The position numbers and the translations under genes were made by a program. From contig NC_020504.1 of assembly GCF_000349325.1 (NCBI RefSeq), positions 1,456,806 to 1,520,805 on the forward strand: 64,000 nt of DNA. The letters run 5' to 3'. Below the pieces are notes generated by a model. That model was not told the origin of the DNA. It saw only the letters and a list, made by a program, of their open reading frames with translations, and searched no databases. Below are positions 14,173-48,975 of the stretch, in pieces. The DNA is from Streptomyces davaonensis JCM 4913 (GTDB lineage Bacteria; Actinomycetota; Actinomycetes; Streptomycetales; Streptomycetaceae). Positions within the stretch are counted from its first letter, which is position 1, and the number at the start of each line of letters is the position of its first letter.

Positions 14173-14852
14173 GGCAGCGGCTCCTCAGCGTGGGGAAGGT
14201 GCTCCGGTGTCGTGCCCGGGCTTGTCCCGGGCCGGCTCGTGCGGGTTCCGTTCAGGAAGGCGTCGACGATGCGTTCGGCGAACACCGCCGATTCCACGGG
14301 GCGTTGACGCAGGATCAGGCGGGCGGCCATCGGGCCGGTGAGCATCTCGACGGCATCGTCCAGGTCGAGGTCGGCGCGGAGCTCGCCGCTGTCGATGCCG
14401 TCCGCCAGGACCCGTAGAAAGGCCTCGTGCCGGGCGGCGACGACCGTGTCCTCGAAGCGCTCCACGAGTTGCGGGCGGCGTACCGCCTCTCCGAGCAGGC
14501 TGCCGATCAGCCGGTGCAGATTGGTGTCCTGGCCGCGGTGGCGCAGCTGGTCGACGAGCGTCACCAGCCGGTCCCGCAGGCTGAGTCCGTCCAGCGGCGG
14601 CACGGGCAGGTCGAGGCTGCCCAGCGCGGCGAGCACCAGTTCTTCCTTGTTGCGCCAACGGCGGTAGATGGTGGCTCGGGCGACGCAGGCGCGCTGGGCG
14701 ACCAGGTCCATGGACAGGTCGCCGAAGCTGCACCCCTCACTGAGCAGGCCCAGGGTGCTGTCCAGGATCGCCTGGTCGGCGGCGGGGTCGCGCTGGCGGC
14801 CGCCCCGGGGGACGGGTCCCGGGGCGGCCGCGGGTGGGTCGACGTGGGGCAT
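14169..14852 (-). CDS. TetR-family repressor of the exporter operon
   Basis: 227 residues from ATG 14852; the reading frame extends far upstream but overlaps the MFS gene and is a shadow there. The helix-turn-helix is SMDLVAQRACVARATIYRRWRNKEEL, followed by a typical TetR_C helical domain. The N-terminal ~20 residues are Pro/Arg-rich. It starts five bases after the exporter stop codon and overlaps the hydrolase start by four bases, so the three genes form one operon. The likely operator is the 44-bp palindrome at 16545-16588 in front of the exporter. Confidence 0.88.
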   Translation of the reverse strand: MPHVDPPAAAPGPVPRGGRQRDPAADQAILDSTLGLLSEGCSFGDLSMDLVAQRACVARATIYRRWRNKEELVLAALGSLDLPVPPLDGLSLRDRLVTLVDQLRHRGQDTNLHRLIGSLLGEAVRRPQLVERFEDTVVAARHEAFLRVLADGIDSGELRADLDLDDAVEMLTGPMAARLILRQRPVESAVFAERIVDAFLNGTRTSRPGTSPGTTPEHLPHAEEPLP

Positions 14853-14857
14853 ACGGC

Positions 14858-16462
14858 TCAGACCTCCGTGGTGTGGACTTCTCGCGTGGTCGCCTCCTGG
14901 CCGCCGGGTGCCCTGATGGCCGTACGGGAGGGCAGGAACAGCAGGCTGACGAGGGCGCCGAGGAAGGTGACACCGACCGCGACGAGGGCCGTGAGGTGCA
15001 TGGCGGAGACGAACGCGTCGACGGCCCGGCCGGCGAGCGGTGCACCTCGCGGGCCCAGGTCCTCCGCGGCGGTGAGGGTGGCGGCGATGGACTCCCCGGC
15101 GCTGTCGCGGAGCGGGGCGGGCAGCGGCGTCAGGTGGTCCTCGATCCGGGAGCGGTAGGCGAGGGAGAGCACCGAGCCGAGGACGGCGACACCGAGGGCG
15201 CCGCCGACCTGCCGGAAGGTGGTGGTGACGGCCGATCCGGTGCCCGCCCGGTCCGAGGAGACGGCGGACATGGCGGCCGAGGTCGCGGGCGGCATGACGC
15301 AGGCGATGCCGATGCCCATGACGAAGAGGACGGACTCGATCACCCACACCTCGGTCCGCTCGTCGATGCCCGCCACGGCGAGGAAGGCCAGCGAGGTGAG
15401 CAGCATGCCCACGGCGCACACCGGCCCGGTTCCGATCCGTTTGGCCGCGAGCGTGGCCGGTGCCGAGCAGCCCAACTGCGCCAGGGCCAGGGGCAGCAGC
15501 AGGCACCCGGCCTCGAGCGGCGTCCAGCCGCGCACGCTCTGGAGATAGAACACCAGGAAGAAGGTGGCGCCGAGCAAGGCGAAGAAGACCAGGCAGATGA
15601 CCGTCACCGCAGCCGAGAAGCGGCGGTCGGTGAACAGGGCGAGGTCCAGCGCGGGCCGCTCGATGCGGTGTTCCCAGAGGGCGAACAGGCCCAGGATCAG
15701 CAGACCCCCGAGGATCGGCCCCCAGACGACGGCCTCCGCCCAGTTGTCCGACTCACCGCCCCGGATCACGCCGTACACCAGAGAGGTGAGCCCGGCGACG
15801 GACAGCACGGCGCCGAGCGGGTCGAGACCGCCGCGTCCGGGGTCCTTGGACTCGGGGACGACGTAGAGCGCGGCGGTGGCGCCGATCAGTACGACGGGCA
15901 GGTTGACCAGGAACACCGAGCCCCACCAGAAGTGTTCGAGCAGCGCGCCACCGGTGATCGGCCCGAGCGCGATGGCCAGTCCGGCGGCGCCCGCCCACAG
16001 ACCGATGGCCTTGGCACGCTCGGCGGGCGGGAAGACGGCCATGATGATCGCCAGGGTGGCCGGCAGCACCAGGGCGGCCCCGACTCCCAAACCCGCCCGC
16101 GCGACGATCAGTTCGTCGGCGCTGCTGGCGTAGGCGGACCACACGGAACAGGCGCCGAAGACGGCAAGTCCGGCCAGCAGGACGCGTTTTCGTCCCCAGC
16201 GGTCGGCGAGCGCGCCGGTGGTGAAGAGCAGCGCGGCGAAGACCAGGGTGTAGGAGTCGATGGACCACTGCAATGCGCCCGGCGAGGCCCCGAGGCCCTC
16301 GGGCGCGGGCTCGGCCAGGGTTTTCAAGGCCACGTTGAGGATCGACGTGTCCAGGACCACGAGCAGCAGGCCGACCAGGAGCACCGCGAGCACGCGCCAG
16401 CGGTGCGGGTGCGCGGTCTGCGAGGTGGGGCCAGGGGGCGTGCGGCGAGACTGAGGTGTCAC
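14858..16462 (-). CDS. MFS drug exporter, 14-TM EmrB/QacA (DHA2) family
   Basis: 534 residues from GTG 16462 with GAGGAG nine bases upstream. Many hydrophobic segments and the family signatures are visible: LVVLDTSILNVAL in TM1, the A-type motif GALADRWGRKRVLL, and the drug/H+ antiporter motif C region (GPITGGALLEHFWWGSVFLVNLP). It would export a small molecule, most simply the product of the adjacent cluster, giving self-resistance. Transcribed from a promoter embedded in the 16545-16588 palindrome, so expression is expected to be induced by a ligand of the TetR protein encoded next. Confidence 0.92.
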   Translation of the reverse strand: MTPQSRRTPPGPTSQTAHPHRWRVLAVLLVGLLLVVLDTSILNVALKTLAEPAPEGLGASPGALQWSIDSYTLVFAALLFTTGALADRWGRKRVLLAGLAVFGACSVWSAYASSADELIVARAGLGVGAALVLPATLAIIMAVFPPAERAKAIGLWAGAAGLAIALGPITGGALLEHFWWGSVFLVNLPVVLIGATAALYVVPESKDPGRGGLDPLGAVLSVAGLTSLVYGVIRGGESDNWAEAVVWGPILGGLLILGLFALWEHRIERPALDLALFTDRRFSAAVTVICLVFFALLGATFFLVFYLQSVRGWTPLEAGCLLLPLALAQLGCSAPATLAAKRIGTGPVCAVGMLLTSLAFLAVAGIDERTEVWVIESVLFVMGIGIACVMPPATSAAMSAVSSDRAGTGSAVTTTFRQVGGALGVAVLGSVLSLAYRSRIEDHLTPLPAPLRDSAGESIAATLTAAEDLGPRGAPLAGRAVDAFVSAMHLTALVAVGVTFLGALVSLLFLPSRTAIRAPGGQEATTREVHTTEV

Positions 16463-16600: not shown

Positions 16601-17266
16601 TTACAGACCGTCAGGCCCCAATGCGCGGGCGACGACGAAGCGGTCCATGACCGGATCGCACCGCAACCGCCAACCCGGCGCGGAAGGTTCCAGCCACCAG
16701 CCGTCGCCCGGGACGGGCCGGGGGCGGAGGCGTGCGAAATCGTGCGCAAGACCGACGCCGAGCGCCTTGGTGTAGGCCTCTTTGAGCGTCCACAGCCGTA
16801 CCAGCAGCGCATTGCGTTCGGCGGGCGGCAGTTCGCGCAGCTCGGCCAGTTCCTCCGGGTGACAGAACCTCTCGGCGAACCCGGGCGCCAGCAACGGGCG
16901 GTCCCGCGCCTCCACGTCCACGCCGATGCGACGACCGTGCGCCACGCCGACGACTAGCACGTCGGCCGTATGACTGATGCTCACGTCCAGCCCCGAGGGG
17001 GCGCGCAGGACCGGCCGCCCATGGCCGTCGCGGTCCAGGACCACACGGTGGGGTGAGGTGGCGGCGGCCGCCGCCACCGCTTGGCGCAGCAGCCGCCGGG
17101 AGCCCAACGACCGTGCCCGGCCCACGGTTTCGCCCGCGGGCACACCGAGCGCCCGCGGCCGTACGTCCAGCCGGCCCAGGCAGACGGCATGCCCGCCGGG
17201 AGGCAGCGGACCGGCCGGGAGTGCTCCCACCGCGGTCCCCTCGCCGGGTACGTCCGCTTCGCCCAC
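16601..17266 (-). CDS. Sfp-type 4'-phosphopantetheinyl transferase
   Basis: 221 residues from GTG 17266 with GAGGAGGG just upstream; the longer open frame lacks a site. Signature motifs are present: SISHTADVLVVGVA, GVDVE with the metal-binding acidic residues, and WTLKEAYTKALG (WxxKEAxxK). It transfers phosphopantetheine from CoA to carrier-protein serines. The operon starting at 17485 encodes three carrier domains (19331 ACP, the PKS C-terminal ACP and the 25669 ACP), which are the obvious local substrates. It is divergent from that operon. Confidence 0.92.
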   Translation of the reverse strand: MGEADVPGEGTAVGALPAGPLPPGGHAVCLGRLDVRPRALGVPAGETVGRARSLGSRRLLRQAVAAAAATSPHRVVLDRDGHGRPVLRAPSGLDVSISHTADVLVVGVAHGRRIGVDVEARDRPLLAPGFAERFCHPEELAELRELPPAERNALLVRLWTLKEAYTKALGVGLAHDFARLRPRPVPGDGWWLEPSAPGWRLRCDPVMDRFVVARALGPDGL

Positions 17267-17369
17267 ACAGCCCTCCTCGCGTCGACGCTTCAGGCACCGC
17301 GTGCCAGCACGGTACGTGTCCCCGCGCGCACCCATCGTCGCAACCGGCCATGCCTACAACCCCAAACCC

Positions 17370-17398: not shown

Positions 17399-17484
17399 CC
17401 GTCTTTTCACGACACCTCAAGGCTTGGGGCAATCGGATGGCACTCGGTGCCGCCGCAAGGATCGGTTCTGGGAGAGGACAGCCC

Positions 17485-19293
17485 GTGCCACACCAGCTTC
17501 AGTACCGGACGATGACGGACGCCGTACGCACCGGCGTGGAACGCCATCCTGAGCGGCCCGCGTTCGTGTACCTGCACGAGGACGGCCCGGACATGCGGCC
17601 CGAGCAGCTCAGCTACGCCGAACTGGACCGCCGGGCCCGCTCGGTGGCCACCAGGCTCCAGCACGCGTCCCAGCAAGACCGCTCGCGTCCGGTCCTGCTG
17701 CTCTACCCGCCGACCCTGGACTTCGTCACGGCCTTTCTCGGCTGCTTCTACGCGGGGCGCACCGCCATCCCCGCACCCCTGCCCGACGAGCCGGGCGAAC
17801 GACTGGCCCGGGTCCACGGGATCCTGCGGGACGCCGACGTGGGCGCGGTGCTGACCCTGCCGAAGTACCGGCAGGCCATCGCGGCCTGGCTGGCCGCAGC
17901 GGGAGAGCAGGACGTGCTGTGCCTGGCGACCGGCGCGGACGCCGAGGAGACGGCCGACCCCGACCTGTGGACCCCGCCCCGCGTACGCGACACGGATGTG
18001 GCCTTCCTCCAGTACAGCTCCGGCTCCACCAGCGAGCCGAAGGGCGTCATGGTCACGCACGCCAACCTCGCCGCCAACGAGGAGGCCATCCGCGGCGCCA
18101 TGGTGACCCCGGACGGCGTGGTGGCCGGCAGCTGGCTGCCGCTCTACCACGACATGGGGCTCATCGGCATGACCCTGCAACCGCTGTGGGTGGGCGGCAC
18201 CAGCGTGCAGATGTCCCCGATCGCCTTCATCAAACAACCGCACCGCTGGCTGCGCATGATCCACGACTACCGGGTCGAGGGCACCGCATCCCCCAACTTC
18301 GGCTACGAACTGTGCACCCGCCGCGTCACCGAGGAACAGTCCGCCGACCTGGACCTGTCCAGCCTGCGGGTGGCCCTCAACGGGGCCGAGCCGGTGCGCG
18401 CCGAGACCCTGCGCGCCTTCGTCGGCCGCTTCGCGGGCAACGGGCTGCGTCCGCAGGCGATCCGGCCCTGTTACGGCCTGGCGGAGAACACCCTGCTGGT
18501 CTCCAGCGGCGACACCGAGGCCCCCCACCTCGAACTCACCGTGGACGCCCGCGCCCTGGAGCAGGACGAGCTGCGGCCCGCCCGTAGCGACCGTGCCGAC
18601 CGCACCCTGGTCGGCTGCGGCCGGCCGAAGGACACCGAGGTGCTGATCGTGGACCCGGTGACCCTGCGGGTGCTGCCCGACGGCCAGGTCGGCGAGATCT
18701 GGCTGCGCGGCCGATCGGTGGCCTCCGGCTACTGGAACCGGAAGGAGCTCACCGCCGAGACCTTCCGGGCCGTGACGGCGGACGGCCGCGCGGGCTACTT
18801 TCGCACCGGTGATCTCGGGGCCCTGCTCGACGAGGAGCTCTACGTCACCGGGCGGATCAAGGAGATGCTGATCCAGCACGGCCGCAACCTCTACCCGCAG
18901 GACATCGAGCAGGCCGTACAGGAGTCCGGGGAGGCGTTCCGGCGCGGCGGAGGCGCGGTGTTCACCGTCACCGACGAGGCGTCCGAGCGCGCGCACGTGG
19001 TCGTGGTGCAGGAGTTGCGGGCCCCCGCCGTCGAGGCAGCGGACCTGGTCCAACTCGGCGCCTCGGTCCAGTCCTTGATCAGCCGTCAGTTCCAGTTGCC
19101 CGCCGTGAGCGTGGTGCTGGTGCGCCCCGGAGCGATCCGTAGGACCACCAGCGGCAAGACGCAGCGCACCCTCATGCGGCGGCTCTTCCTCGACGGCAGC
19201 CTGCCGGTGCTGCACCAGCGGCTTCAGCCGCCGGTCGCCGCCCTGGTCACCGCCCCGGGCGAGGCACCGGAGCCCGCCGTCACCCGTCGCTGA
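17485..19293 (+). CDS. Fatty acyl-AMP ligase (FAAL)
   Basis: 602 residues from GTG 17485 with GGAGAGG seven bases upstream. The adenylate-forming P-loop is YSSGSTSEPKG (residues ~177-187), followed by the FAAL/long-chain signatures YHDMGLIG, LNGAEPVRAETL and CYGLAENTL, then YFRTGDLG and the C-terminal subdomain with SGKTQR. The long N-terminal domain and AMP-to-ACP context fit FAALs, which adenylate a fatty acid and load it directly onto an ACP without CoA. The very next gene is a stand-alone ACP, its expected acceptor. First gene of the biosynthetic operon, so it probably selects the starter chain. Confidence 0.92.
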   Translation: MPHQLQYRTMTDAVRTGVERHPERPAFVYLHEDGPDMRPEQLSYAELDRRARSVATRLQHASQQDRSRPVLLLYPPTLDFVTAFLGCFYAGRTAIPAPLPDEPGERLARVHGILRDADVGAVLTLPKYRQAIAAWLAAAGEQDVLCLATGADAEETADPDLWTPPRVRDTDVAFLQYSSGSTSEPKGVMVTHANLAANEEAIRGAMVTPDGVVAGSWLPLYHDMGLIGMTLQPLWVGGTSVQMSPIAFIKQPHRWLRMIHDYRVEGTASPNFGYELCTRRVTEEQSADLDLSSLRVALNGAEPVRAETLRAFVGRFAGNGLRPQAIRPCYGLAENTLLVSSGDTEAPHLELTVDARALEQDELRPARSDRADRTLVGCGRPKDTEVLIVDPVTLRVLPDGQVGEIWLRGRSVASGYWNRKELTAETFRAVTADGRAGYFRTGDLGALLDEELYVTGRIKEMLIQHGRNLYPQDIEQAVQESGEAFRRGGGAVFTVTDEASERAHVVVVQELRAPAVEAADLVQLGASVQSLISRQFQLPAVSVVLVRPGAIRRTTSGKTQRTLMRRLFLDGSLPVLHQRLQPPVAALVTAPGEAPEPAVTRR

Positions 19294-19330
19294 GTTCTGC
19301 AGGCACCAGCCCCTGAGAGGAAGAAACGCC

Positions 19331-19666
19331 ATGAGCATCGCCCCCGACACCCGAGGCGCCCGTCGCGCCGGACCCGTGGACCGGCCCTCGCCTCGCGGAA
19401 CGGCACCCGACCTCGAACTGTGGCTGACCGGGCGAGTCGCCTTCCACCTGCGCAGGACCGCCGACGAGATAGACCCGGACACCCCGCTCGCCGACTACGG
19501 CATCGACTCCGTCGCGGCGATCAGCATCTGCGGCGAGATCGAGGAGACGTACCGGATGGCGGTCTCCCCCACCATCGCGTACGACTTCCCGACGGTCCAC
19601 GCGATCGCGTCCCATGTCGCCGAACGCCTGGCCGACCGGGCTGCGGGCCGCGAGGACCCGTCATGA
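19331..19666 (+). CDS. Acyl carrier protein (FAAL partner)
   Basis: 111 residues from ATG 19331 with AGAGGAAG upstream. After a ~25-residue Arg/Pro-rich N-terminus comes a carrier domain with phosphopantetheine site S60 in DYGIDSVAA and the usual TIAYDFPTVHAIASHV end. It would accept the fatty acyl group from the FAAL and present it to the PKS ketosynthase. Its stop overlaps the PKS start (ATGA). Confidence 0.9.
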   Translation: MSIAPDTRGARRAGPVDRPSPRGTAPDLELWLTGRVAFHLRRTADEIDPDTPLADYGIDSVAAISICGEIEETYRMAVSPTIAYDFPTVHAIASHVAERLADRAAGREDPS

Positions 19667-22600
19667 GCGTGCGCGAGCCCATCGCCGTAGTCGGTCTCGA
19701 CTGCCGTTTCCCCGGCGCCCGGGACGCACAGGAGTACTGGGCACTCCTCATGGACGGACGCGACGGCACCGGCCGGGTGCCCGAGCGGCGCTGGGACGCT
19801 GAGCGCTACCACGTCGCCGCCCCGTCCACCGCGCAGGGCGCCCCCGGCAGCCGGCCGCCCGGCCGCAGCAACACCGTGCGCGGCGGCTTCATCGACGACC
19901 CCGACGCGTTCGACCCCGCCTTCTTCGGGATCGCACCGCGCGAGGCCGCCGCGATGGACCCGCAGCAACGGCTGCTGCTCCAGTGCTCGTGGCGGGCCGT
20001 GGAGGACGCCGCCGTCGCACCGCAGGACCTGGCCGGCACGGCGACCGGCGTGTTCGTCGGAGTGATGGCCAGCGAGTGGGCGCATCTGGCGCTCCGGGAC
20101 TACGACCGGATCACCGCCCGCCACGGCTCCGGCAACGGCTACTTCATGGCCGCGAACCGCGTCTCGTACCACCTCGACCTCAAGGGCCCGAGCCTTGCGG
20201 TGGACACGGCCTGCTCCTCCTCGCTGGTCGCCGTGCACCTCGCGATGAACTCGCTGCGCTGGGGCGAGTGCGACCACGCCCTGGTGGCCGGCACCAACCT
20301 GATCATGACGCCGGTCATCAACATCTTCTACACCCAGGCCGGTCTCTCGGCGCCCGACGGCCGGTGCAAGCCGTTCAGCGCGGCGGCGGACGGGATCGGG
20401 CGCGCCGAGGGCGTGGCGGTGCTCGTGCTGCGCCGCCTCGGCGACGCGCTGGCGGACCGTCAGCCGGTGTACGCCGTGCTGAAGGAGACCGGGAGCAACC
20501 AGGACGGCCGCAGCAACGGCATCACCGCGCCCAACCGCTGGGCTCAGGAGCAGCTGATCGAGTCCGTGTGGGAGCGGGCCGGCATCACCGCCGACGACAT
20601 CGGGTTCATCGAGGCGCACGGCACCGGCACGCTGCTCGGCGACTTCATCGAGGCCCAGGCGCTCGGCCGGCTGACCGCTGCCCGCAGCGGCGGCAGCGTC
20701 GCGCTGGGCTCGGTCAAGAGCAACTTCGGGCACGCCGAAGGCGCGGCCGGCATCGCCGGACTCATCAAGACCGTCCTCGCGCTGCACCACCGTACGGTGC
20801 CGCCGAGCCGGTACGCCCACGACGAGAACCCGCGGTTGGACCTGCCCGGACAGCGGCTGAACCTGCTCAGGTCGCCGCTCAGGCTGGGCTCCGGCACGGT
20901 GCATGCCGCGGTGAGCAGTTTCGGCATGGGCGGCAGCAACGCCCACGCGGTGCTGGCCTCAGCGCCCCGGACGGTCCATCGGACCCGCCCCGGTGCGCCG
21001 GGCGTGTTCACCGTCTCCGCCCGGGGCGCGGAGCGGCTGCGGGCCAATCTGCTCGCCCAGGCCGAGGCCCTCGCCCGCCGTCCGGGCGACCAACTGGCGC
21101 AGGTGTGCTGGACCAGCAACCGGGTCAAGTCCCGGCTGCCGCAACGGGTGGCCGTCGCCGCCGCCGACCTGCCCACGCTGGTGGCGGGGCTCCGGGAGGC
21201 GGCACACCGGGTGGACGGGACCGGCCCGGCGGGCACCGCCCGGCGGGCGGCCCCGTCGGTGGCGTTCGCCTTCACCGGGCAGGGTGCGCAGGACCCCCGG
21301 AACACCGCCTCCTGGTACCGGTCGTGCCCCGCCTACGCACGCCACCTCGACGACGTGGACCGACTGCTCGCCCCGCACACCGGTCGGTCCGTGCGCGACC
21401 TGCTCCTCGACGACGCCCCGGAGTTCCACCGCCCGGGACTGGTCCAGCCCGCGCTGTTCGCGGTCGGGTACGCGATGGCCGCCACCCTGGCCGAGGCCGG
21501 GATCAGGCCCGCGTACGTCATCGGGCACAGCATCGGCGAGTTCGCGGCCGCCTGCGTGGCCGGAGCGCTCGACCCGGCGGACGCCGCCCGGCTGGTCGCC
21601 CGGCGCGGACAGCTGATGGAGACACTGCCCGACGACGGCGGGATGCTCGCGGTGGCCCTCGACGCCGCGGAGGCCGAGCCGCTGCTCGCGGGACGGCAGC
21701 GGCTCGGCCTGGCCGCCGCGAACGGCCCCCGCCGCACCGTGATCGCCGGAGACCGCGGTGAACTCACCGCCCTCATCGCCGAGTTGACCGAACGCAAGGT
21801 GGCCGCCCGGCCGCTCGCGGTCTCCCATGCCTTCCACTCGCCGCTGATGCTGCCCGTGGTCGACGCGTTCCGCCGCGCCTGCGCGAACACCCCCGACCGG
21901 CGTCCGAACCTTCCGGTCTTCTCGACCGTCCACGGCCGGGAGCTGACCGGCGAGGAAACCCTTGACGCCGACTACTGGGCGGCACAGATCACCGCCCCGG
22001 TGCGGTTCGCCGAGGCCGCCCACGCACTGCTCGCCACCGACGTCACCCACGTGGTGGAGATCGGCCCGGCCGCGGTGCTCACCCCGCTGCTGGCCCGGCT
22101 GCGGACGGAGACCGGATCCCCGGTGAGCCTGCACGCCGCACATCCCGGCGAGCGTGCCCCGGGGCACCGGCCCCAGCAGTTGTTCGGCGAACTGTGGTGC
22201 GCGGGCCTCACCCCCGACTGGGACGTGCTGTACGCCGAGTCCGACCGGCTGCCCCGTCGGCTGCCGCCCTATCTGTTCGACACCTCGTTCCGCGCCTGGC
22301 GCTCCGGCGCCGCCCCGGATCATCCGGAACCGTCCGCGCCCCCCATCCCCCTTGGCGCGGACGCCGCGGTACCGCTGCCCACGGACCGCGATCAGTCGTG
22401 TCCGCCGACCCCGGCAGGGGACGTGCCGGACTCCCTCGCCGCACAGGCCCGCCGTCTGGTGTGCCGGGTCGGCGGACACGACCCCGACCTGGTGCACGAC
22501 GACTCCCGGCTCCATGAGGACCTCGGCTTCGACTCGATCCAGGCCGTGGAGCTGAAGGCCCGGATCGAGCACGAGCTGCCCCACCTCGGCACGCTCCCGG

Positions 22601-22713
22601 TCGAGGAACTGCTTCAGAGCATGCGCACCGTGGGCGACCTGGTCCGGTATCTGCGCAGCCGCGGCCTCGCCGACACCGCCCTGCCCCTGACCCCGGAAGG
22701 AACCGGCCGATGA
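19663..22713 (+). CDS. Type I polyketide synthase, KS-AT-ACP
   Basis: 1016 residues from ATG 19663, overlapping the ACP stop. The ketosynthase fills ~1-430 with the full triad: C184 (DTACSSS), H319 (EAHGTGT) and H357 (KSNFGHAEGAAG). The acyltransferase spans ~530-830 with nucleophile S623 (GHSIGEF) and HAFH at 722-725, the motif predicting malonyl-CoA. A C-terminal ACP has S958 (DLGFDSIQAVEL). There is no ketoreductase, dehydratase, enoylreductase or thioesterase, so one round would add an unreduced two-carbon unit and leave a beta-ketoacyl-ACP, exactly what a tetronate-forming enzyme needs. The ACP-to-KS order of the upstream genes fits loading by the FAAL-ACP pair. Confidence 0.93.
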   Translation: MSVREPIAVVGLDCRFPGARDAQEYWALLMDGRDGTGRVPERRWDAERYHVAAPSTAQGAPGSRPPGRSNTVRGGFIDDPDAFDPAFFGIAPREAAAMDPQQRLLLQCSWRAVEDAAVAPQDLAGTATGVFVGVMASEWAHLALRDYDRITARHGSGNGYFMAANRVSYHLDLKGPSLAVDTACSSSLVAVHLAMNSLRWGECDHALVAGTNLIMTPVINIFYTQAGLSAPDGRCKPFSAAADGIGRAEGVAVLVLRRLGDALADRQPVYAVLKETGSNQDGRSNGITAPNRWAQEQLIESVWERAGITADDIGFIEAHGTGTLLGDFIEAQALGRLTAARSGGSVALGSVKSNFGHAEGAAGIAGLIKTVLALHHRTVPPSRYAHDENPRLDLPGQRLNLLRSPLRLGSGTVHAAVSSFGMGGSNAHAVLASAPRTVHRTRPGAPGVFTVSARGAERLRANLLAQAEALARRPGDQLAQVCWTSNRVKSRLPQRVAVAAADLPTLVAGLREAAHRVDGTGPAGTARRAAPSVAFAFTGQGAQDPRNTASWYRSCPAYARHLDDVDRLLAPHTGRSVRDLLLDDAPEFHRPGLVQPALFAVGYAMAATLAEAGIRPAYVIGHSIGEFAAACVAGALDPADAARLVARRGQLMETLPDDGGMLAVALDAAEAEPLLAGRQRLGLAAANGPRRTVIAGDRGELTALIAELTERKVAARPLAVSHAFHSPLMLPVVDAFRRACANTPDRRPNLPVFSTVHGRELTGEETLDADYWAAQITAPVRFAEAAHALLATDVTHVVEIGPAAVLTPLLARLRTETGSPVSLHAAHPGERAPGHRPQQLFGELWCAGLTPDWDVLYAESDRLPRRLPPYLFDTSFRAWRSGAAPDHPEPSAPPIPLGADAAVPLPTDRDQSCPPTPAGDVPDSLAAQARRLVCRVGGHDPDLVHDDSRLHEDLGFDSIQAVELKARIEHELPHLGTLPVEELLQSMRTVGDLVRYLRSRGLADTALPLTPEGTGR

Positions 22714-23732
22714 CCGTTCCCACCGCACACCTGGCCTCGGTCGGCACCTGTCTGCCCGGGGAGCCCGTGGACAACGCGACGCTGGCCAAGCTCGTCGGCG
22801 TCGACGAGACGTGGGCCGAGATGTTCATCGGCAACACCAGCCGGTACTTCGCCGTCGACCTGGCCACCGGTCAGGTGCGGCACAGCCTGGCCGACATCGC
22901 GGCGACCGCCGCCGACCGGGCGCTGGCGCAGGCCGGTCTCGATCCGCGCGACATCGACTGCGTCGTCATGGGCACCGCGACCCCGGACCATCTGATGCCC
23001 GCCACCGTGAACCTGGTCGCCGACCGGCTCGGCATCGACAACGCCCCCACCTACCAGCTCCAGTCCGGCTGCGCCGGCGCCGTGCAGGCCCTCGACGTGG
23101 CCCGCACCCTGCTGCTGGCCGGGCGCTGCGCCACCGTGCTGGTGATCGGCGGCGACGTGTGCGCCAAGCACTTGGAGCGGGACTTCGATCCCGGTACCCG
23201 CACATCCGCCGAACTCGTCAATTACGCCCTCTTCGGCGACGGGGCCGGAGCGGCCGTGCTCAGCGCCGAACCGCTGGGCCCGGGGATCGCGATCCGTCAG
23301 GTGCTCAACCGGCTGGTGGGGCTGGGCCGCGAACCCGGCCAGATCATCGACTGGTTCGGGCTCGGTGACCGGCACAGCGACCGTCCGGCGGTCTCGGAGG
23401 ACTACAAGGCGATCGAGGAGACGGTGCCCCTCCTGGCCCAGCAGATGTTCTGGGAACTCCTCGGCGACCTGGGCTGGGGCGCCGAGGAGGTGGACTTCCT
23501 GCTGCCCCCACAGCTCTCCGGCCGGATGAGCGACCGCATCTCGGCGGCCATGCCCGCCCCGGGCGCCCGACGCATCAACGTGGTGCGTTCCGTCGGCAAC
23601 AACGGCAACGCCCTGCCCTTCCTCCAGCTCGCCGAGCTCCTGGAGCAGTGGGAGAGTCCGGGGCGCGCCGTCGCGGTGGCCGTCGAGTCCAGCAAGTGGA
23701 TCAAGTCCGGTATCGCGCTGGAGCGCTCATGA
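22710..23732 (+). CDS. KAS III-like enzyme, probable tetronate-forming
   Basis: 340 residues from ATG 22710 (ATGA overlap with the PKS stop). FabH fold: nucleophile C121 in QLQSGCAGAVQAL and the C-terminal asparagine region VGNNGNALPF. Where FabH enzymes have the catalytic histidine (PHQANxRI) this protein reads PPQLSGRM, so His is replaced by Pro; a decarboxylative condensation by the usual route is therefore unlikely. KAS III homologues beside FkbH-type proteins (RkD, Agg1) join glyceryl-ACP to a beta-ketoacyl thioester in tetronate pathways, and others in polyketide clusters act as acyltransferases. The neighbours favour the tetronate role; this is inference from context. Confidence 0.85.
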   Translation: MTVPTAHLASVGTCLPGEPVDNATLAKLVGVDETWAEMFIGNTSRYFAVDLATGQVRHSLADIAATAADRALAQAGLDPRDIDCVVMGTATPDHLMPATVNLVADRLGIDNAPTYQLQSGCAGAVQALDVARTLLLAGRCATVLVIGGDVCAKHLERDFDPGTRTSAELVNYALFGDGAGAAVLSAEPLGPGIAIRQVLNRLVGLGREPGQIIDWFGLGDRHSDRPAVSEDYKAIEETVPLLAQQMFWELLGDLGWGAEEVDFLLPPQLSGRMSDRISAAMPAPGARRINVVRSVGNNGNALPFLQLAELLEQWESPGRAVAVAVESSKWIKSGIALERS

Positions 23733-25672
23733 CCCAGGCCCAGGAACGGATTCCCCTGTCCCCTGCGAGCTGGCACGACCAGGCGTCCCTCGCCGCTTTG
23801 CGCGGCCTGTACCGCGCCGGGAGGCTGGCCGAGGAGTACGGCACGGTGCGGGCGCTGCTGTCCCGGATGCCCCGGGCCGACCTCCCGGCCGCGGGCCAGC
23901 TGCTGGCCCGGCTCGACCTGGAGGAGGTACGCCGCCACGCCCCCGACCTGCCGGTGGTCTCCATAGCCGTGACGGGCGAGTCCACCGTGGCACCGGTCGT
24001 GGGACCGCTCACCGCCGAACTGGCCCGCCATGGGCTGCTGCTGGAGGCGAAGGTCGCGCCGTACGGGTCGTACGTGCAGGACTTGATGCGGCCGGCCGAC
24101 CCGGCGATGGGCGAGGAGCAACCGCACCTGACGCTGTGCGTGCTCGACGCGCACACGGTCGTCGGCGGCCTCACCGCGCCCTGGCGGGCCGAGGACGTCG
24201 AGAAAGCGGCGCGGACCCAACTCGCGCTGCTGACCGCCGCCGTGGGCGCCCATCAGCAGGCGGGTCGCGGGCTGCTCGTGCTCAACACCGTCCCGTTGCA
24301 CCACCACTTCACCCATCAGCTGATCGACCTGCGCTGCCGGGCCCGGCTCGGCGTGGTGTGGCGGCAGTTCAACAGCGGGCTGCTGTCACTCGCCGCCGAA
24401 CACCCGGGCGTGGTCGTCATCGACCTCGATCCGCTGATCGGCGAGGGCGTGCCCGCAGCGGAGCCGCGCGCCGCCCAGTACGCCCGGGCGCGGTTGTCCG
24501 AGCCGCTGCTGGCCCGCTACGCCCGGGAATCCGCGCACATCGTCCGTGCCCGCCTCGGCCGGACCCGCAAGGTCCTGGTGCTGGACCTGGACGGAACCCT
24601 GTGGGGCGGCGTACTCGGTGAGGACGGGCCCGGCGGCATCGAACTCGGCGTGGGGCTGCGCGGCGAGGCCTTCGCGGAGTTCCAGCGGGTGCTCCGGCAA
24701 CTCGCCGCCCAGGGTGTGCTGCTCGCGGTCAGCAGCAAGAACGACGCGGACGCCGTGAGCCGCACGCTGCGGACGCATCCGGCCATGGTCCTGCGCGAGC
24801 AGGACTTCGTGCACGTCAACGCCAACTGGAAGCCCAAGCACGACAATCTCCGGGACATCGCCGAACGGCTCGGACTCGGCCTGGACAGCTTCGTCTTCGC
24901 CGACGACAGCCTCTTCGAATGCGGGCTCGTCGCCGAGCAGCTGCCCGAGGTCGCTGTCGTACGCGTCGACGACGAACCCGCCCTGCACCCCTCGGCGCTG
25001 CTGGCCGACGGCTGGTTCGACCTGTTCGAGCTGACCGAGGCCGACCTGGAGCGGGCGGACCGCTACCGCACCGAGGCCCGACGGCAGGAGTTCCGCGAGG
25101 ACTTCGACTCCTACCAGGACTACCTCGACGGGCTCGGCCTGGAGGTCACCCTCCGCCCGCCGGACGAGCCGGACCTCGCGCGAGTCTCCCAACTCACCCT
25201 GCGCACCAACCAGTTCCATCTGGCCACCGAGCGACTCCACGTCCCGCAGGTGGCCGACCGGATGACGTACCCGGGACAGTACGTGATCGCGGTGCACGCG
25301 CGTGACCGGTTCGGCGACCACGGCCTGGTCGGCGCGCTGTTCCTGCGCCGCGACGGGAAAGTGCTGCGCATCGACAACTTCGCCCTGAGCTGCCGCGTGT
25401 TCGCCCGGGGCATCGAGGCCGCCTGTGTGGCCGCGGTGCTTCGATTCGCCCACGACAGCGGGGCGCAGGCCGTGGCGGGCCGCTACCTGCCGTCCCCGCG
25501 CAACGCCGCCTTCGCCGCGTTCTACGGCGAGCAGGGCTTCACCCCGGTGGGCACCGACCCGGACGATCCCGACGCCGTCTTCTTCCGGCACGACCTGCGC
25601 CACATCGCCCCCGCCCCCGCCCACCTGCGGCTGCACGCCGCGTTCGGGCCCGACACCGGAGACCGCACATGA
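23729..25672 (+). CDS. FkbH-like glyceryl-ACP synthase
   Basis: 647 residues from ATG 23729 (ATGA overlap). The N-terminal ~270 residues resemble the SGNH-like part of the family; the HAD core begins at VLVLDLDGTLWGGVLGEDG (nucleophile D286, D288), followed by LAVSSKNDAD, a VHVNANWKPK segment with the HAD lysine, and FADDSLFE. A GNAT-like C-terminus ends near DPDAVFFRHDL. FkbH proteins take 1,3-bisphosphoglycerate, remove a phosphate and load the glyceryl group onto a dedicated ACP. That ACP is the next gene. This is the strongest marker for a glycerate-derived unit in the product. Confidence 0.92.
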   Translation: MTQAQERIPLSPASWHDQASLAALRGLYRAGRLAEEYGTVRALLSRMPRADLPAAGQLLARLDLEEVRRHAPDLPVVSIAVTGESTVAPVVGPLTAELARHGLLLEAKVAPYGSYVQDLMRPADPAMGEEQPHLTLCVLDAHTVVGGLTAPWRAEDVEKAARTQLALLTAAVGAHQQAGRGLLVLNTVPLHHHFTHQLIDLRCRARLGVVWRQFNSGLLSLAAEHPGVVVIDLDPLIGEGVPAAEPRAAQYARARLSEPLLARYARESAHIVRARLGRTRKVLVLDLDGTLWGGVLGEDGPGGIELGVGLRGEAFAEFQRVLRQLAAQGVLLAVSSKNDADAVSRTLRTHPAMVLREQDFVHVNANWKPKHDNLRDIAERLGLGLDSFVFADDSLFECGLVAEQLPEVAVVRVDDEPALHPSALLADGWFDLFELTEADLERADRYRTEARRQEFREDFDSYQDYLDGLGLEVTLRPPDEPDLARVSQLTLRTNQFHLATERLHVPQVADRMTYPGQYVIAVHARDRFGDHGLVGALFLRRDGKVLRIDNFALSCRVFARGIEAACVAAVLRFAHDSGAQAVAGRYLPSPRNAAFAAFYGEQGFTPVGTDPDDPDAVFFRHDLRHIAPAPAHLRLHAAFGPDTGDRT

Positions 25673-25908
25673 CCACCGCCCTCGCCGGTACGGCGGAATT
25701 CCGCACGCTCCTTGAGGAGGAACTCGGCCTGTACCTGGAGGAGGAGGACCTGGACCGGCCGCTGGACGACTTCCCCGACTGGGACTCGGTGCTGCTGCTG
25801 CGGCTGGTGACCGTGGTGGAGCGCGTCGTCGGGCGGCGGATCCCGGTGGCCGATCTGCTCGAGGTCAGGACGTTCCGCCAGATGCACCAGGTGGTGACCG
25901 AGCCATGA
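25669..25908 (+). CDS. Acyl carrier protein for the glyceryl unit
   Basis: 79 residues from ATG 25669, overlapping the FkbH stop by ATGA. Acidic, with the phosphopantetheine serine S40 in PDWDSVLLLRL and a short helix IV region (LLEVRTFRQM). Stand-alone ACPs immediately after FkbH genes carry the glyceryl thioester in tetronate and methoxymalonate pathways. Distinct from the FAAL partner at 19331. Confidence 0.9.
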   Translation: MTTALAGTAEFRTLLEEELGLYLEEEDLDRPLDDFPDWDSVLLLRLVTVVERVVGRRIPVADLLEVRTFRQMHQVVTEP

Positions 25909-26078
25909 CCCCTCCGACGACCGACTCCCCGCCCCAGGAACCCGACGCCTGCCTGCACTTCCACGCGGTGTTCCTCGACACCCACCTGGACCTGGTCTGG
26001 TCCCCCGGCCTCGGCAGGCGGATACGAGCCTGTCTCGCCCTGCTCGGCAAAGAGGAAGAGAAAGGAGCAGCCCGATGA
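25905..26078 (+). CDS. 57-residue protein in the biosynthetic operon
   Basis: ATG 25905 overlaps the ACP stop and its own TGA (26076-26078) overlaps the next ATG, so it sits in the ATGA chain of the operon with no spare base. The product begins MTPPTTDSPPQEPDAC, continues LHFHAVFLDTHLDLVW and ends in a basic/acidic tail with KEEEKGAAR. No membrane segment, signal peptide or known domain. It may be a small accessory subunit of a neighbouring enzyme; alternatively the segment is merely a translated spacer. The coupling on both sides argues for translation. Confidence 0.6.
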   Translation: MTPPTTDSPPQEPDACLHFHAVFLDTHLDLVWSPGLGRRIRACLALLGKEEEKGAAR

Positions 26079-27172
26079 TCCCCATGGCGGAGCTGCGCAG
26101 GTTCGCTCTCCCGCACGCGTACGCCCAGGGCATCCCCGGCGACGTCATCCACCGGGTGACGCACAGCCTCTCCGAGGACACCGAGGGCGCCTGGACCCAC
26201 ACCTGGTCCTCGCTCGCGACGGCGGCCGAGGCACGCGGCCGCGATCTGGACGCGGTCCGCTATTACGCGATGGCCCGCTTCCCGTACGTCGACGGCCCGG
26301 ACCGGCTCGCGGCGCAGCAGGGTTGTGTGGCGGCCTTCGATCGCTGGCGCAAACGTGCCCGCGGCGTCACCCGGCTCGATCTGCCCTTCGAGGACGCGGG
26401 CTTCGCCTGCTGGGCCACCGGCCTGTCCCTGCGGAACAGGCTCCCGCTGATCCTCGTCGTCGGCGGGATCGCCGGCGTCAAGGAACAGTGGGCCCCGGTG
26501 CTCGCCGAGTCCGACCGGCTCGGCGCGGCCGTCGTGGTCACCGAGCTGCCGGGGGTCGGCGAGAACTCCCTCACCTACGGAACGGACAGCGTGCGCATGC
26601 TCACCTACCTCCTCGATCTGCTCGGCCGCGCGGCCGACACCTCCCGCACCTGCGTCGTCGGTCTCGGCTTCGGCGGGCATCTGGCCCTGCGTCATGTGCT
26701 GGACGACGACCGGGTAAGGGGGCTGGCCACCGTCGGGGCGCCGGTGCGGGACTTCTTCGTCCGGGCCGCGCAGCACGCCCCGCTGCCGCAGCTGGTGAAC
26801 CTCACCCTGTCCCACCTGATGCGTACGCCGGTGGAACGGCTGCCGGCCGCCCTGGCCGACTGGCCGGTGGACGAGGAGCAGCTTGCCGAACTGCGCGTCC
26901 CGGTCGCCTGCGTGGCAGGCCGCGACGACGAGATCGTGCCGTACTCCGACGCCCAGCTGCTCGAACGGACCGTGCCGCGCCTGCGACTGGTCGAGAACGA
27001 CACGCTGGGCGGCCGGCCCGAGCAAGCCGCCGAGACCCGGCTGTGGCTGCTGGCGCAGGCGCTGCGGATGACGGGCACGGCGAGCGCGGTACGCCGGGCG
27101 GCCTCGGCCCGCGCCCGCGTCCTGCGCGCCCGGCGCCGGCTGAACCGTACGTCGGCCGGAGCCCCCGTATGA
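26075..27172 (+). CDS. Alpha/beta-hydrolase-fold protein lacking the nucleophile serine
   Basis: 365 residues from ATG 26075 with AAAGGAG eight bases upstream (ATG 26084 is an alternative). FrsA-like layout: helical N-terminal part (~1-110), then core strands LILVVGGIAG and VVVTELPGVGENS. The nucleophile elbow reads GLGFGG (196-201) instead of GxSxGG, so position 198 is Gly. The acid (GRDDEIVPYSD) is kept, but the histidine loop (VENDTLGGRPEQ) has no clear His. It is therefore unlikely to be a serine hydrolase. In agglomerin biosynthesis an alpha/beta-hydrolase-fold protein (Agg5) eliminates acetate to make the exocyclic double bond; whether this protein plays a comparable lyase role is speculation, and no Agg4-like acetyltransferase was found. 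Confidence 0.78.
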   Translation: MIPMAELRRFALPHAYAQGIPGDVIHRVTHSLSEDTEGAWTHTWSSLATAAEARGRDLDAVRYYAMARFPYVDGPDRLAAQQGCVAAFDRWRKRARGVTRLDLPFEDAGFACWATGLSLRNRLPLILVVGGIAGVKEQWAPVLAESDRLGAAVVVTELPGVGENSLTYGTDSVRMLTYLLDLLGRAADTSRTCVVGLGFGGHLALRHVLDDDRVRGLATVGAPVRDFFVRAAQHAPLPQLVNLTLSHLMRTPVERLPAALADWPVDEEQLAELRVPVACVAGRDDEIVPYSDAQLLERTVPRLRLVENDTLGGRPEQAAETRLWLLAQALRMTGTASAVRRAASARARVLRARRRLNRTSAGAPV

Positions 27173-27981
27173 CCACCACCGCCGCGGTGCCGTGCCTGAA
27201 CCGGACGCCCCGTGCGGACGCCCGGCTGCGGCTGTTCTGTTTCCACCACGCGGGCGGCGGGGCCTCGTTCTTCAGCTCCTGGGCCGCCCGCGTCCCGTCC
27301 GGCGTGGACGTCCTGCCGGTGCAGCTGCCGGGGCGCGAGGCGCGCTACCGGGAACCCCGCTTTCAGGACGCCGGGGAGCTCGTCGAGACCCTCGCCCGGG
27401 ATCTCGCCCCCTGCCTCGACGAGGGCCCTTGGGCCGCGTACGGCCACAGCATGGGCGCCTTGGTGGCGGCCGCCCTGGCCACGGCCCGGCTGCGGGCGGG
27501 AGGACGCGGCCCCGAGGCACTGTTCCTCGGCGCGTACGCGGCCCCGCACCTGACGCCCACGCTGCCCTTGCCCGACCGGTACGAGGACCGCGAACTGGCC
27601 CGGCTGCTGGTCGACTTCGGCGGTATGCACCCGCAGTTCCTGGACCGGGAGGACTGGCTGCGGGTGCTGCTGCCCATCGTCCGGGACGACCTGCGGGTAT
27701 GCGCGAGCCACAGTAGGGCGGGGCTGCCGGACCCGGACGACGAACAGGCCCGGCTGCCCCTGGCCGTCGAGGCGTTCGCGGGCCTCGACGACCCGTTGGT
27801 GGACCCGGCACGGGTGCGCGCGTGGGAGCGGTACGCACACGACTTCCGTCTGACCCTGGTGCCCGGCGGTCACTTCTTCCCTCGTGAGGAGCCCGGCCCC
27901 TTCTTCGGCCGGCTCAACCGCTCCCTGGCCCGGCTGCTCGGGGAGCCGCCGCCGGTCGCACCACCCGCGGCACCCGGCTGA
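27169..27981 (+). CDS. Type II thioesterase
   Basis: 270 residues from ATG 27169 (ATGA overlap). Signatures of TEII editing enzymes: LFCFHHAGGGASFFSSWA, QLPGREARY, nucleophile S94 in GHSMGAL, and GGHFF near the end with the catalytic histidine. It would clear misprimed acyl groups from the carrier proteins of the operon. It is the last gene of the operon; its 3' end overlaps the convergent metallo-hydrolase gene by 68 bases. Confidence 0.92.
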   Translation: MTTTAAVPCLNRTPRADARLRLFCFHHAGGGASFFSSWAARVPSGVDVLPVQLPGREARYREPRFQDAGELVETLARDLAPCLDEGPWAAYGHSMGALVAAALATARLRAGGRGPEALFLGAYAAPHLTPTLPLPDRYEDRELARLLVDFGGMHPQFLDREDWLRVLLPIVRDDLRVCASHSRAGLPDPDDEQARLPLAVEAFAGLDDPLVDPARVRAWERYAHDFRLTLVPGGHFFPREEPGPFFGRLNRSLARLLGEPPPVAPPAAPG

Positions 27982-28798
27982 TCCGCCGCGCGCTGTCGTC
28001 GGCGTTCTTCTCGTACAGGGCGCGCTGTTCCTGGATGCCCGGCATGACCCAGGACGGCCGGGCCGAGGAGTCGGCGAAGCGCAGCCCCGGGGTGTCGGGC
28101 CCTGCCCCGGTCACGGTGAGCGCGAAGGGCGCCAGGTAGTCGATGCCGCCGTCCGCGGTGAGCCGGAACGGCCGGTCGTGGCCCGGATAGATCACGTCGG
28201 ACACGTCCAGGATCCGCCCGATGCTGCGCGCGGCCTGGTCGGCGTCCCAGAAGACGAGGGGGTTGCGACCGGTCGTGGCGACGTACGCGAAGTGCAGGGC
28301 GTCGCCGGTGATCGTGGCCCGCCCCGCCTCCGTGTGCACCACCAGGCCGATGCTGCCCGGCGAGTGGCCGGGCAGGCCGAGGACCTCGACGCCGGGGATG
28401 ATCTCCTCCCCGTCCCCGACCTCGCGGACGGGTAGCTGCTCCAGCAGCAGCCCCGTCCAGGCGGGCGTGGCCCAGTCGTTGGCGTGCGGGGTGTGCGCGT
28501 ACCGGCGCTCGTCGGGGTGGACGACCAGGGTCGCCCCGGGGAACAGGTCGATGTTCTGTACGTGGTCCCAGTGGGCGTGCGTGAGCACGACGGTGTCGAT
28601 GTCGTCGGCCGACAGGCCGTGGTCGGCGAGCGCGGTCCACAGGAAGGGACGCCGGCCGACGTGGGCGGCGTCGACGAGGATGTTCCGGGGCTGTCCGGCG
28701 GCGTCCGGACCGCGGACCAGGAACACTCCGCAGAAGGCGGGATAGCCCTGATCGGTGTCGAGGCCGAAGCCGGGCAGGAGGATGTCGATGGTCGGCAT
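27914..28798 (-). CDS. Metallo-beta-lactamase-fold hydrolase
   Basis: 294 residues from ATG 28798; the open frame upstream is a shadow of the synthetase gene. The zinc ligands are clear: THAHWDHVQN (HxHxDH), GLPGHSPGS and a later IYPGHD, with ITGDALHF for the bridging aspartate. The N-terminus (MPTIDILLPGF) lacks a signal peptide, so it is cytosolic. Relatives hydrolyse lactones, thioesters or acyl groups; a role in tetronate/lactone metabolism is possible but not shown. Thirty-five bases separate it from the acyl-CoA synthetase stop, so it is the last gene of the MFS-thiolase-synthetase operon. The last ~20 residues are Ala/Pro/Arg-rich and overlap the thioesterase gene in antisense. Confidence 0.85.
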   Translation of the reverse strand: MPTIDILLPGFGLDTDQGYPAFCGVFLVRGPDAAGQPRNILVDAAHVGRRPFLWTALADHGLSADDIDTVVLTHAHWDHVQNIDLFPGATLVVHPDERRYAHTPHANDWATPAWTGLLLEQLPVREVGDGEEIIPGVEVLGLPGHSPGSIGLVVHTEAGRATITGDALHFAYVATTGRNPLVFWDADQAARSIGRILDVSDVIYPGHDRPFRLTADGGIDYLAPFALTVTGAGPDTPGLRFADSSARPSWVMPGIQEQRALYEKNADDSARRISRVPRVVRPAAAPRAAGPGSG

Positions 28799-28833
28799 GG
28801 AACTCCCTTGGTCCAGGGGCGGGTTGTCCCTGT

Positions 28834-30768
28834 TCAGTGGTCCGGGATCTGCTGGACGGCGGTACGGAGGGCGTCGAGGCTCTCGGGGTTGACGAGGGTG
28901 GACAGGTCGCCGGGCTCCTCGCCGGTGACCACGTCGCGGATGAGGCGCCGCATCACCTTGCCGTTGCGGGTCCTGGGCAGTTGGCGCACGGCGATCACCC
29001 GGCTGGGCCGGAACGCGGAGCCGAGGGCGTCGGCGACGCGTGCGCGGATCAGCTCGCACTCCGCTGCGCCGAGCGGCCTGTCGGCGGCCGGGACCGCGAA
29101 GCACCACAGGGCCTCGCCCTTGACGGGGTGCGGTATGCCGACCGCGGCGGCCTCGCCGACGGCCGGGTCGCCGAGGACCGTCTCCTCCACCTCGGTGGGT
29201 CCGAGGCGTTTGCCGGCCACCTTGATGACGTCGTCGAGGCGGCCGTGGACGAACCACTCCTCGCCGGTCCGCGAGACGAGGTCACCGTGCGCCCAGCGGC
29301 CCGGCCGCCGGTCGAAGTAGGCCTGGGTGAACCGTTCGCGTGCCCGCCACAGCCCGCGGGTCATGCCGGGCCACGACTGCCGTACGACCAGCTCTCCGGC
29401 CTGTCCTTCGGGCGGCTCGGCGCCCGAGGCATCCGCGACGGCCGCGTCGATGCCCAGGCACGGGCCCGCGAAACCGCAGGGCGACTGGGGCAGGGTGGGC
29501 GCGGAGGCGAGCAGGGAGCCGCCGACCTCGGTGCCGCCGCAGATGTTGATCACCGGGCAGCGTTTGCCGCCGAACTCGGCGAAGTACCAGTGCCACGCCT
29601 CCTCGGTCCACGGTTCCCCGGTGGAGCCGAGGATCCGCAGCCGGCCCGGTGCCCCCGGGTGCGGCAGGTCGCGTCCCCTCAGCATGCGGGACAGGCTGGG
29701 CGAGCTGCCGAACACGGTGACCTCGTGGTCGTCGAGCAGCCGCCACAGCCGGGTGGGGCCCGGATGGTCGATCGCGCCCTCGTACGCCAGGACGCAGGCA
29801 CCGGCGAGGGTCGCTCCGACGGCGACGAGCGGGAACATGATCCAGCCCGGGTCGGTCACCCACCACACGACGTCGTCCGGCCGCAGGTCGAGGTTGTACC
29901 GCGTCTCACTGCCGACTTGGGCCGGGAAACCGCCGTGGGTGTGGACGGCGCCCTTGGGCCGGCCGGTGGTGCCGGAGGTGTGCAGCAGGAGGAAGGGGGT
30001 GTCGGCGGCGAGCGAGACGGTTCCGGCGGGCTCGGCGGCGGCCGGCCCCTGCCAGGTCGTACCGGGCGGTCCGGACGCGCTCGCCGTCTCCGGGACGACG
30101 ACGAGATGCCGTACGCACGACGCCTTCTCCAAGGCCGTGCGGGCGGCGCTCTCCATGTCGTGGCGGCGTCCGTGCCGGACGGAGGCTGTCGCGGTCACCA
30201 GGACCCGAGGCTCGGCGTCGGCGAGCCGCACGGCGATCGCCTCGGCTCCGAAGCCGGAGAACAGGGGGACCAGGACGGCGCCGATGCGCGCGCAGGCGAA
30301 GAGCAGGACGAAGGCCTCGGGCCCCGGGGGCAGGTACGCGGCCACCCGGTCGCCGACCGTGACCCCCAGTTCGCGCAGCCGGCCCGCCATCCGGGCGCTT
30401 TGGGTGGCCGCTTCGCCGTAGGTGAGCACTCCGCGGGTGCCGTCCTCGCGCTCCCAGCGCAGTGCGGGGGCGCCGCCGCGCCCTTGCCGTACCTGGCGGC
30501 CCAGGCAGGAGTCCACCAGGTTGGTGCGCCCGCCCGGGAACCAGCGGGTGAACGCGATGCCTCCGGTGTCGTCGCGGACGCGCCGCGGGGGCACGTGCCA
30601 GACGATGCCGATGTCCCGCACGGCCCGCTCCCAGAACCACTCGGGGTCGGCGACGGACCTGGCTTGCAGGGCGCGGTAGCCGCCCTCGACGCCATGCTCG
30701 CGGCAGAAGGCCGCGATGTTGCTGTGCTCGGTGTGCTCGCGAGCCGGGTACCAGGCGTAGCCGCTCAT
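28834..30768 (-). CDS. Acyl-CoA synthetase, acetyl/acetoacetyl-CoA synthetase type
   Basis: 644 residues from ATG 30768, which overlaps the thiolase stop (ATGA). Adenylate-forming motifs: LLHTSGTTGRPKGAVHTHGG (P-loop), VWWVTDPGWIMFP, INICGGTEVGG, HGRLDDVIKVAGKRLGP, and the catalytic lysine in RTRNGKVMRR. An N-terminal ~100 residues (WFWERAVRDIGIVW) is the ACAS_N-like region of acetyl-, propionyl- and acetoacetyl-CoA synthetases. It activates a short carboxylic acid to its CoA ester. Together with the thiolase this suggests degradation or synthesis of a beta-keto acid. Confidence 0.9.
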   Translation of the reverse strand: MSGYAWYPAREHTEHSNIAAFCREHGVEGGYRALQARSVADPEWFWERAVRDIGIVWHVPPRRVRDDTGGIAFTRWFPGGRTNLVDSCLGRQVRQGRGGAPALRWEREDGTRGVLTYGEAATQSARMAGRLRELGVTVGDRVAAYLPPGPEAFVLLFACARIGAVLVPLFSGFGAEAIAVRLADAEPRVLVTATASVRHGRRHDMESAARTALEKASCVRHLVVVPETASASGPPGTTWQGPAAAEPAGTVSLAADTPFLLLHTSGTTGRPKGAVHTHGGFPAQVGSETRYNLDLRPDDVVWWVTDPGWIMFPLVAVGATLAGACVLAYEGAIDHPGPTRLWRLLDDHEVTVFGSSPSLSRMLRGRDLPHPGAPGRLRILGSTGEPWTEEAWHWYFAEFGGKRCPVINICGGTEVGGSLLASAPTLPQSPCGFAGPCLGIDAAVADASGAEPPEGQAGELVVRQSWPGMTRGLWRARERFTQAYFDRRPGRWAHGDLVSRTGEEWFVHGRLDDVIKVAGKRLGPTEVEETVLGDPAVGEAAAVGIPHPVKGEALWCFAVPAADRPLGAAECELIRARVADALGSAFRPSRVIAVRQLPRTRNGKVMRRLIRDVVTGEEPGDLSTLVNPESLDALRTAVQQIPDH

Positions 30769-31940: not shown

Positions 31941-31946
31941 CGGGGG

Positions 31947-33293: not shown

Positions 33294-33323
33294 GCGCGGC
33301 CTCACCGGGCCCCCTCTCCCCCT

Positions 33324-33399: not shown

Positions 33400-33414
33400 T
33401 GTTAATGTCCCGCC

Positions 33415-34032: not shown

Positions 34033-34059
34033 ACCGGCGGCCCGCTGAGGGAGGAGGCT

Positions 34060-48968: not shown

Positions 48969-48975
48969 TCGGCAG

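Follow-up and report, generated by a model that had tools for sequence, protein, structure and literature searches.

Gene organization of the locus

The stretch of DNA analysed here (64,000 nucleotides, hereafter the window) spans positions 1456806-1520805 of the 9.56 Mb genome of Streptomyces davaonensis JCM 4913, and carries a compact gene cluster predicted to make an acyl tetronate. The core, on the plus strand, runs in the order fatty acyl-AMP ligase (FAAL), acyl carrier protein 1 (ACP1), ketosynthase-acyltransferase-ACP (KS-AT-ACP), KASIII-like enzyme, FkbH, ACP2, a 57-codon open reading frame (ORF), AbyA5-like protein and type II thioesterase. From ACP1 to the thioesterase, adjoining genes are joined by 4-base overlaps (19663-19666, 22710-22713, 23729-23732, 25669-25672, 25905-25908, 26075-26078 and 27169-27172) that read ATGA or GTGA. 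Upstream, on the minus strand, lie genes for a 4'-phosphopantetheinyl transferase (PPTase), an MFS exporter, a TetR regulator, an alpha/beta hydrolase and a SARP regulator. Downstream, genes for a metallo-beta-lactamase-fold (MBL) hydrolase, an acyl-CoA synthetase and a thiolase on the minus strand are followed by a large LuxR-type regulator gene on the plus strand (Table 1). All the genes named in the original prediction, which had proposed a self-contained FAAL-primed tetronate operon, were located by domain searches and translation, but the coupled 57-codon ORF had been overlooked.

Table 1. Predicted genes of the tetronate cluster in window coordinates.
Product	Position	Strand	Evidence and remarks
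SARP regulator	11853-12668	-	BTAD PF03704, E 8.6e-46
Alpha/beta hydrolase	12958-14172	-	Pfam; PDB 3fnb (1.2e-19), 2jbw (1.8e-19), 6hxa (6.4e-6)
TetR regulator (start not fixed)	14169-14858	-	TetR_N and TetR_C_11
MFS exporter	14858-16462	-	PF07690, E 3.5e-53
PPTase	16601-17335	-	PF01648, E 6.5e-18
FAAL (start possibly later)	17437-19293	+	PF00501, E 4e-68
Discrete ACP1, predicted loading carrier	19331-19666	+	GIDS motif; sequence; weak Pks13-model match
KS-AT-ACP, one non-reducing module	19663-22713	+	PF00109, PF02801, PF00698, PF00550; translation
KASIII-like enzyme, predicted tetronate-forming	22710-23732	+	
FkbH, predicted glyceryl-S-ACP synthase, long form	23729-25672	+	TIGR01686; tree
Discrete ACP2, predicted glyceryl carrier	25669-25908	+	PF00550, E 1.6e-6
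Coupled 57-codon ORF	25905-26078	+	Present in 12/13 family loci
AbyA5-like (FrsA/AbyA5-like) protein lacking catalytic Ser and His	26075-27172	+	AbyA5 structures PDB 5no5/4ywf
Type II thioesterase	27169-27981	+	PF00975, E 3.9e-37
MBL hydrolase, weakly lactonase-like	27914-28798	-	PF00753, E 2.1e-16
Acyl-CoA synthetase, acetate/acetoacetate type (start not fixed)	28834-30825	-	Model match and PDB 2p20
Thiolase, BktB-like	30765-31940	-	TIGR01930, 428 bits (cut-off 240.55)
Large LuxR-type regulator (start not fixed)	32001-35828	+	GerE PF00196, E 8.8e-17

Predicted assembly of the acyl tetronate

For the ligase, NCBIfam fatty-acid-AMP-ligase models stand near the top of the ranking, with no model's cut-off reached. 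The best PDB match is 7r7e, a ligase borne on a polyketide synthase (2.1e-138), followed by 3kxw and FadD32 entries, which we take, partly from the entry names, to be FAALs. Judged from sequence, the closest relatives of the ligase thus appear to be FAALs. ACP1 has a weak match (E 1.4e-10) to positions 1-82 of the Pks13 model, and the N-terminal carrier region of Pks13 is loaded by FadD32. As a member of this family, the FAAL would activate a fatty acid and load it onto ACP1. No ketoreductase, dehydratase or enoylreductase was matched by Pfam in the KS-AT-ACP module, and its AT motif, read from the translation, is HAFH, presumably malonyl-type. From its domains, the module would add one malonyl unit without reduction and give a 3-oxoacyl thioester, in line with the unreduced beta-ketoacyl chain originally predicted.

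The KASIII-like protein matches AbyA1 both in sequence and in fold. The FabH histidine is replaced by proline, as in AbyA1 and in all 30 aligned relatives. By this double likeness, a FabH-like tetronate-forming enzyme is present. FkbH, the only one in the whole genome, matches TIGR01686 well above the cut-off (E 4.4e-85, 285.7 bits against 146.65). In the FkbH tree, a 13-row family clade (support 100/100) is nested in a 24-row clade (97/96), outside which 39 other FkbHs fall; the window FkbH is accordingly classed as putatively tetronate type. Grouping with methoxymalonyl pathways, the outcome that the original prediction had set against itself, was examined with this tree, and the tetronate reading stood. 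The data thus support a route in which FAAL priming and one non-reducing extension would be followed by joining of a glyceryl unit through KASIII, FkbH and ACP2, as had been proposed.

A conserved family in Streptomyces

A scan of genome contigs with KASIII returned 16 loci. Twelve of them (L002-L013, KASIII 83-94% identical) have the gene order of the window, with the alpha/beta hydrolase at one end and the LuxR-type gene at the other, and together with the window these named Streptomyces loci, among them that of S. cyaneochromogenes (L006), define the family. Because this order recurs in 12 loci of other Streptomyces, the gene set is more than a chance assembly. Of the other four hits, L014-L016 are tetronate loci less closely related to the window, and L017, from an archaeal metagenome-assembled genome, matches only weakly and in part. 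The alpha/beta hydrolase (in some loci cut by the flank), the TetR regulator and the LuxR-type regulator (52-79% identity over the fetched part) occur in all 12 named loci, PPTase in 11 (not found in L010) and the MFS exporter in nine (not found in L003, L004 and L008). SARP was seen in four (L003, L004, L008 and L010), the fetched flank ending short of it in most others. KASIII is found at E <= 1e-60 in 66 of 392 Streptomyces genomes, and with at least 85% identity in 11, that of the window included.

The genes beyond the thioesterase follow the same distribution. Acyl-CoA synthetase was detected at E <= 1e-180 in 10 of 384 genomes, all of which have a family KASIII. In the eleventh genome with a family KASIII (G168) the synthetase is not among the matches listed; there KASIII lies 1.9 kb from the contig end, on the side expected to hold the synthetase. 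The MBL protein keeps its HxHxDH motif in all 12 named loci, with dN/dS of 0.19-0.47. This co-occurrence shows the MBL, synthetase and thiolase genes to be part of the cluster. Since the synthetase co-occurs with family KASIII, the block travels with the cluster, whose extent is about 11.85-35.8 kb of the window. The earlier prediction put the cluster at about 21 kb; its interval 17485-27981 covers only the core, and the MBL, synthetase, thiolase and LuxR-type genes (27914-35828), conserved with it, had not been included. As to their functions, MBL lactonase models and BktB thiolase models stay below cut-off, as does the acetate-CoA ligase model for the synthetase (486 bits against 657; PDB 2p20, E 2.1e-110); our best guess is that they serve to turn over the tetronate or shunt 3-oxo acids. 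The alpha/beta hydrolase bears a remote likeness, in PDB matches, to 2,6-dihydroxypseudooxynicotine hydrolase and AntI.

Beyond the cluster, genes for a berberine-bridge-type FAD oxidase (resembling BagK/FevA1, below cut-off) and a luciferase-like monooxygenase directly follow the LuxR-type gene (35979-38403, plus strand). The window also encodes a UvrA-like ABC ATPase of 861 codons (39505-42090, plus strand), a group with the look of an aromatic meta-cleavage pathway (FAD_binding_3 monooxygenase, HMGL/DmpG-type aldolase, acetaldehyde dehydrogenase and FAA hydrolase-type genes; 47237-52625, minus strand) and a PAS-GGDEF-EAL protein of cyclic-di-GMP turnover (59200-61410, minus strand).

Loss of the acetyltransferase and degeneration of the AbyA5-like protein

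None of the 13 family loci contains an AbyA4 acetyltransferase. A hidden copy was sought in the six frames of these loci (in the window, 11001-37000) with a profile built from eight loci with a tblastn match and run with --max; the best score was 4.3 bits (E 0.1), the three positive controls of this profile having been part of its training set. Four PF00198 genes exist in the genome, all at least 2 Mb from the cluster.

AbyA5 reportedly relies on a catalytic His-Ser dyad. The catalytic histidine is missing in all 16 family AbyA5-like proteins and the serine as well in seven of them; the window protein lacks both. The SARP, PPTase, type II thioesterase and exporter genes of the original prediction are present as described; its "hydrolase" has lost catalytic residues. 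Ser-Asp-His is kept in all 104 other AbyA5 homologues among the matches listed. The AbyA5-like gene was not found in three of the 12 named loci (L010-L012). Compared with nine relatives its dN/dS is 0.30-0.41, and it is still under constraint. With AbyA4 absent by search and the AbyA5-like protein devoid of Ser and His, acetylation-elimination to an exocyclic methylene would not occur and the 5-hydroxymethyl group would stay. From the constraint on its gene, the AbyA5-like protein may still have a role, either non-catalytic or altered. What is new here, as far as sequence can tell, is a family apparently without AbyA4 that mostly keeps an AbyA5-like protein lacking the catalytic histidine.

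The coupled ORF follows ACP2 and precedes the AbyA5-like gene, a place taken by AbyA4 in L112 and L116. It is 57-93 codons long, with a core like CLHFHALFLDTQLD, in the family loci that have it, L010 being the exception. Its profile also matches around the AbyA5-like gene of eight further family loci (L079-L086), whose genomes may partly coincide with those of the named loci, and gave no match above noise in any other fetched locus. A protein search returned six entries: that of the window itself and five Streptomyces proteins annotated as hypothetical. In the 20-codon core, variable columns number 9, 6 and 11 at codon positions 1, 2 and 3, a weak signal. The ORF may be a remnant of AbyA4, whose place it takes and whose N-termini its FLDTxxD stretch resembles; its summed local score against AbyA4 (413) exceeds those of all 300 shuffles (mean 340, maximum 400), but the rows compared are related. 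Against such descent, profile-profile comparison with AbyA4 gave a probability of 0.03% (E 0.94), and the coupled-ORF profile found no AbyA4 frame.

Interpretation and alternatives

Taken together, the cluster probably combines a fatty acid with one malonate unit and a unit derived from glycerol into an RK-682-like 3-acyl-5-hydroxymethyl tetronate. Several points weigh against this. The mechanism leaves the acyl chain length and the starter unpredicted, the roles given to the lactonase-like, synthetase and thiolase proteins are guesses only, and residues 205-230 of the KASIII model have pLDDT under 50. Constraint on the AbyA5-like gene would also fit a changed catalytic activity or the use of a different kind of acetyltransferase, and a GNAT gene lies at 43435-44226, outside the conserved block. 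Finally, P0145, a database AbyA5 homologue of 53-54% identity, has an intact triad. Its longest contig has the same length (27859) as that of P0027 (KASIII, 82%); the two may belong to one locus between the families, and a relative with intact chemistry may therefore exist.

There is a sizeable, if minority, chance that the window simply holds an RK-682-type cluster, identical in core and product, so that only the annotation is new; this would leave the mechanism intact and alter the novelty. In the published passages on RK-682, RkD is the KASIII and RkE the FkbH, RkC and RkF carry ACPs, and six genes sufficed as a minimal set. The letters RkA-F would fit the window order FAAL, ACP, KS-AT-ACP, KASIII, FkbH, ACP, but C and F could be assigned differently and no FAAL is named among the rk genes in those passages. 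To our knowledge, the AbyA5-like protein, the coupled ORF and the lactonase-like/synthetase/thiolase block are not known from the rk cluster.

A product with an exocyclic methylene, as in agglomerins, is improbable: an acetyltransferase acting in trans would have to be combined with elimination of acetate through other residues of the AbyA5-like protein, and the lack of AbyA4 in the 13 family loci searched, the loss of His in all 16 family AbyA5-like proteins and of Ser in seven, and the missing AbyA5-like gene in three named loci all argue against it. Least credible by far is synthesis by FkbH and ACP2 of a hydroxy- or methoxymalonyl-ACP extender with no tetronate, as FkbH homologues do elsewhere (Mad14 is described as acting with two dehydrogenases and a methyltransferase), since domain searches found no such partners in the operon, FkbH adjoins an AbyA1-type KASIII and is single in the genome, and its tree position disfavours such a role.

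It is possible, if rather unlikely, that AbyA5 has become a conserved pseudoenzyme which, with the coupled protein of 57-93 residues in place of the acetyltransferase, serves a non-catalytic step (for example, holding the tetronate or steering KASIII), the lactonase-like enzyme, synthetase and thiolase forming a dedicated disposal route for tetronate or shunt acids. As a class, acyl tetronates are antibacterial and inhibit enzymes, and the cluster suits expression work because it is small and itself supplies FAAL, PPTase, thioesterase and exporter. The related loci can be read as a natural series: some have the acetylation-elimination pair with an intact AbyA5, in others the acetyltransferase is missing and AbyA5 is degenerate, and in the last neither remains. 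Comparing them permits asking why a degenerate lyase is retained.

Comparison with known tetronate systems

The comparisons draw on passages of published work (PMC4979870, PMC5318452, PMC6395733, PMC5819245, PMC6066502, PMC12144888, PMC7489565, PMC6522549, PMC3625739, PMC5724707, PMC10107801, PMC7466098, PMC7333363). The closest functional precedent is RK-682, a hydroxymethyl tetronate made through KASIII, FkbH and ACPs, a likeness of described gene roles. RK-682 is the hydroxymethyl form, since Agg4 and Agg5 are described as taking it as substrate (PMC4979870). The agglomerin cluster (agg1-5) shares the route from glyceryl-ACP and KASIII to a simple acyl tetronate in the same source, but has the Agg4/Agg5 acetylation-elimination pair, whereas in the window Agg4/AbyA4 has no homologue and that of Agg5/AbyA5 is degenerate. 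According to the abm gene table, the window order of KASIII, FkbH, ACP and AbyA5 homologues is that of abyssomicin, A1-A2-A3-(A4)-A5 and then a thioesterase; the window differs in lacking A4, in an A5 without Ser and His, and in having a FAAL and one module instead of a multimodular polyketide synthase.

In the open-licence PMC literature, which says little about subscription journals, nothing combined tetronate, FkbH and fatty acyl-AMP ligase, and no FAAL with a tetronate was among the matches listed. The proposal that a FAAL with a single non-reducing module is an undescribed system is not supported, being weakened both by the RK-682 precedent, as far as published passages describe it, and by the recurrence of FAAL-linked tetronate loci in Streptomyces. 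Outside the family, FAAL stands beside a tetronate-type FkbH in L077, L108 and L111, and FAAL and KASIII occur together in four fetched loci, L014, L016, L115 and L127. These four resemble the window in FAAL, ACP, KS-AT-ACP, KASIII and ACP, with FkbH seen in L014 (at the edge), L016 and L115, and an AbyA5-like gene in L014, L016 and L127. Lactonase-like and thiolase genes were not seen in their fetched stretches. They differ further in gene order and in having AbyA4 (in L014 and L016 a 2-oxoacid_dh gene of AbyA4 type by Pfam) and two acyl-CoA dehydrogenase-like genes (also seen by Pfam in these two; L014 725-6495, L016 3342-5057, also L115 and L127), which suggests desaturated acyl chains in these distant relatives.

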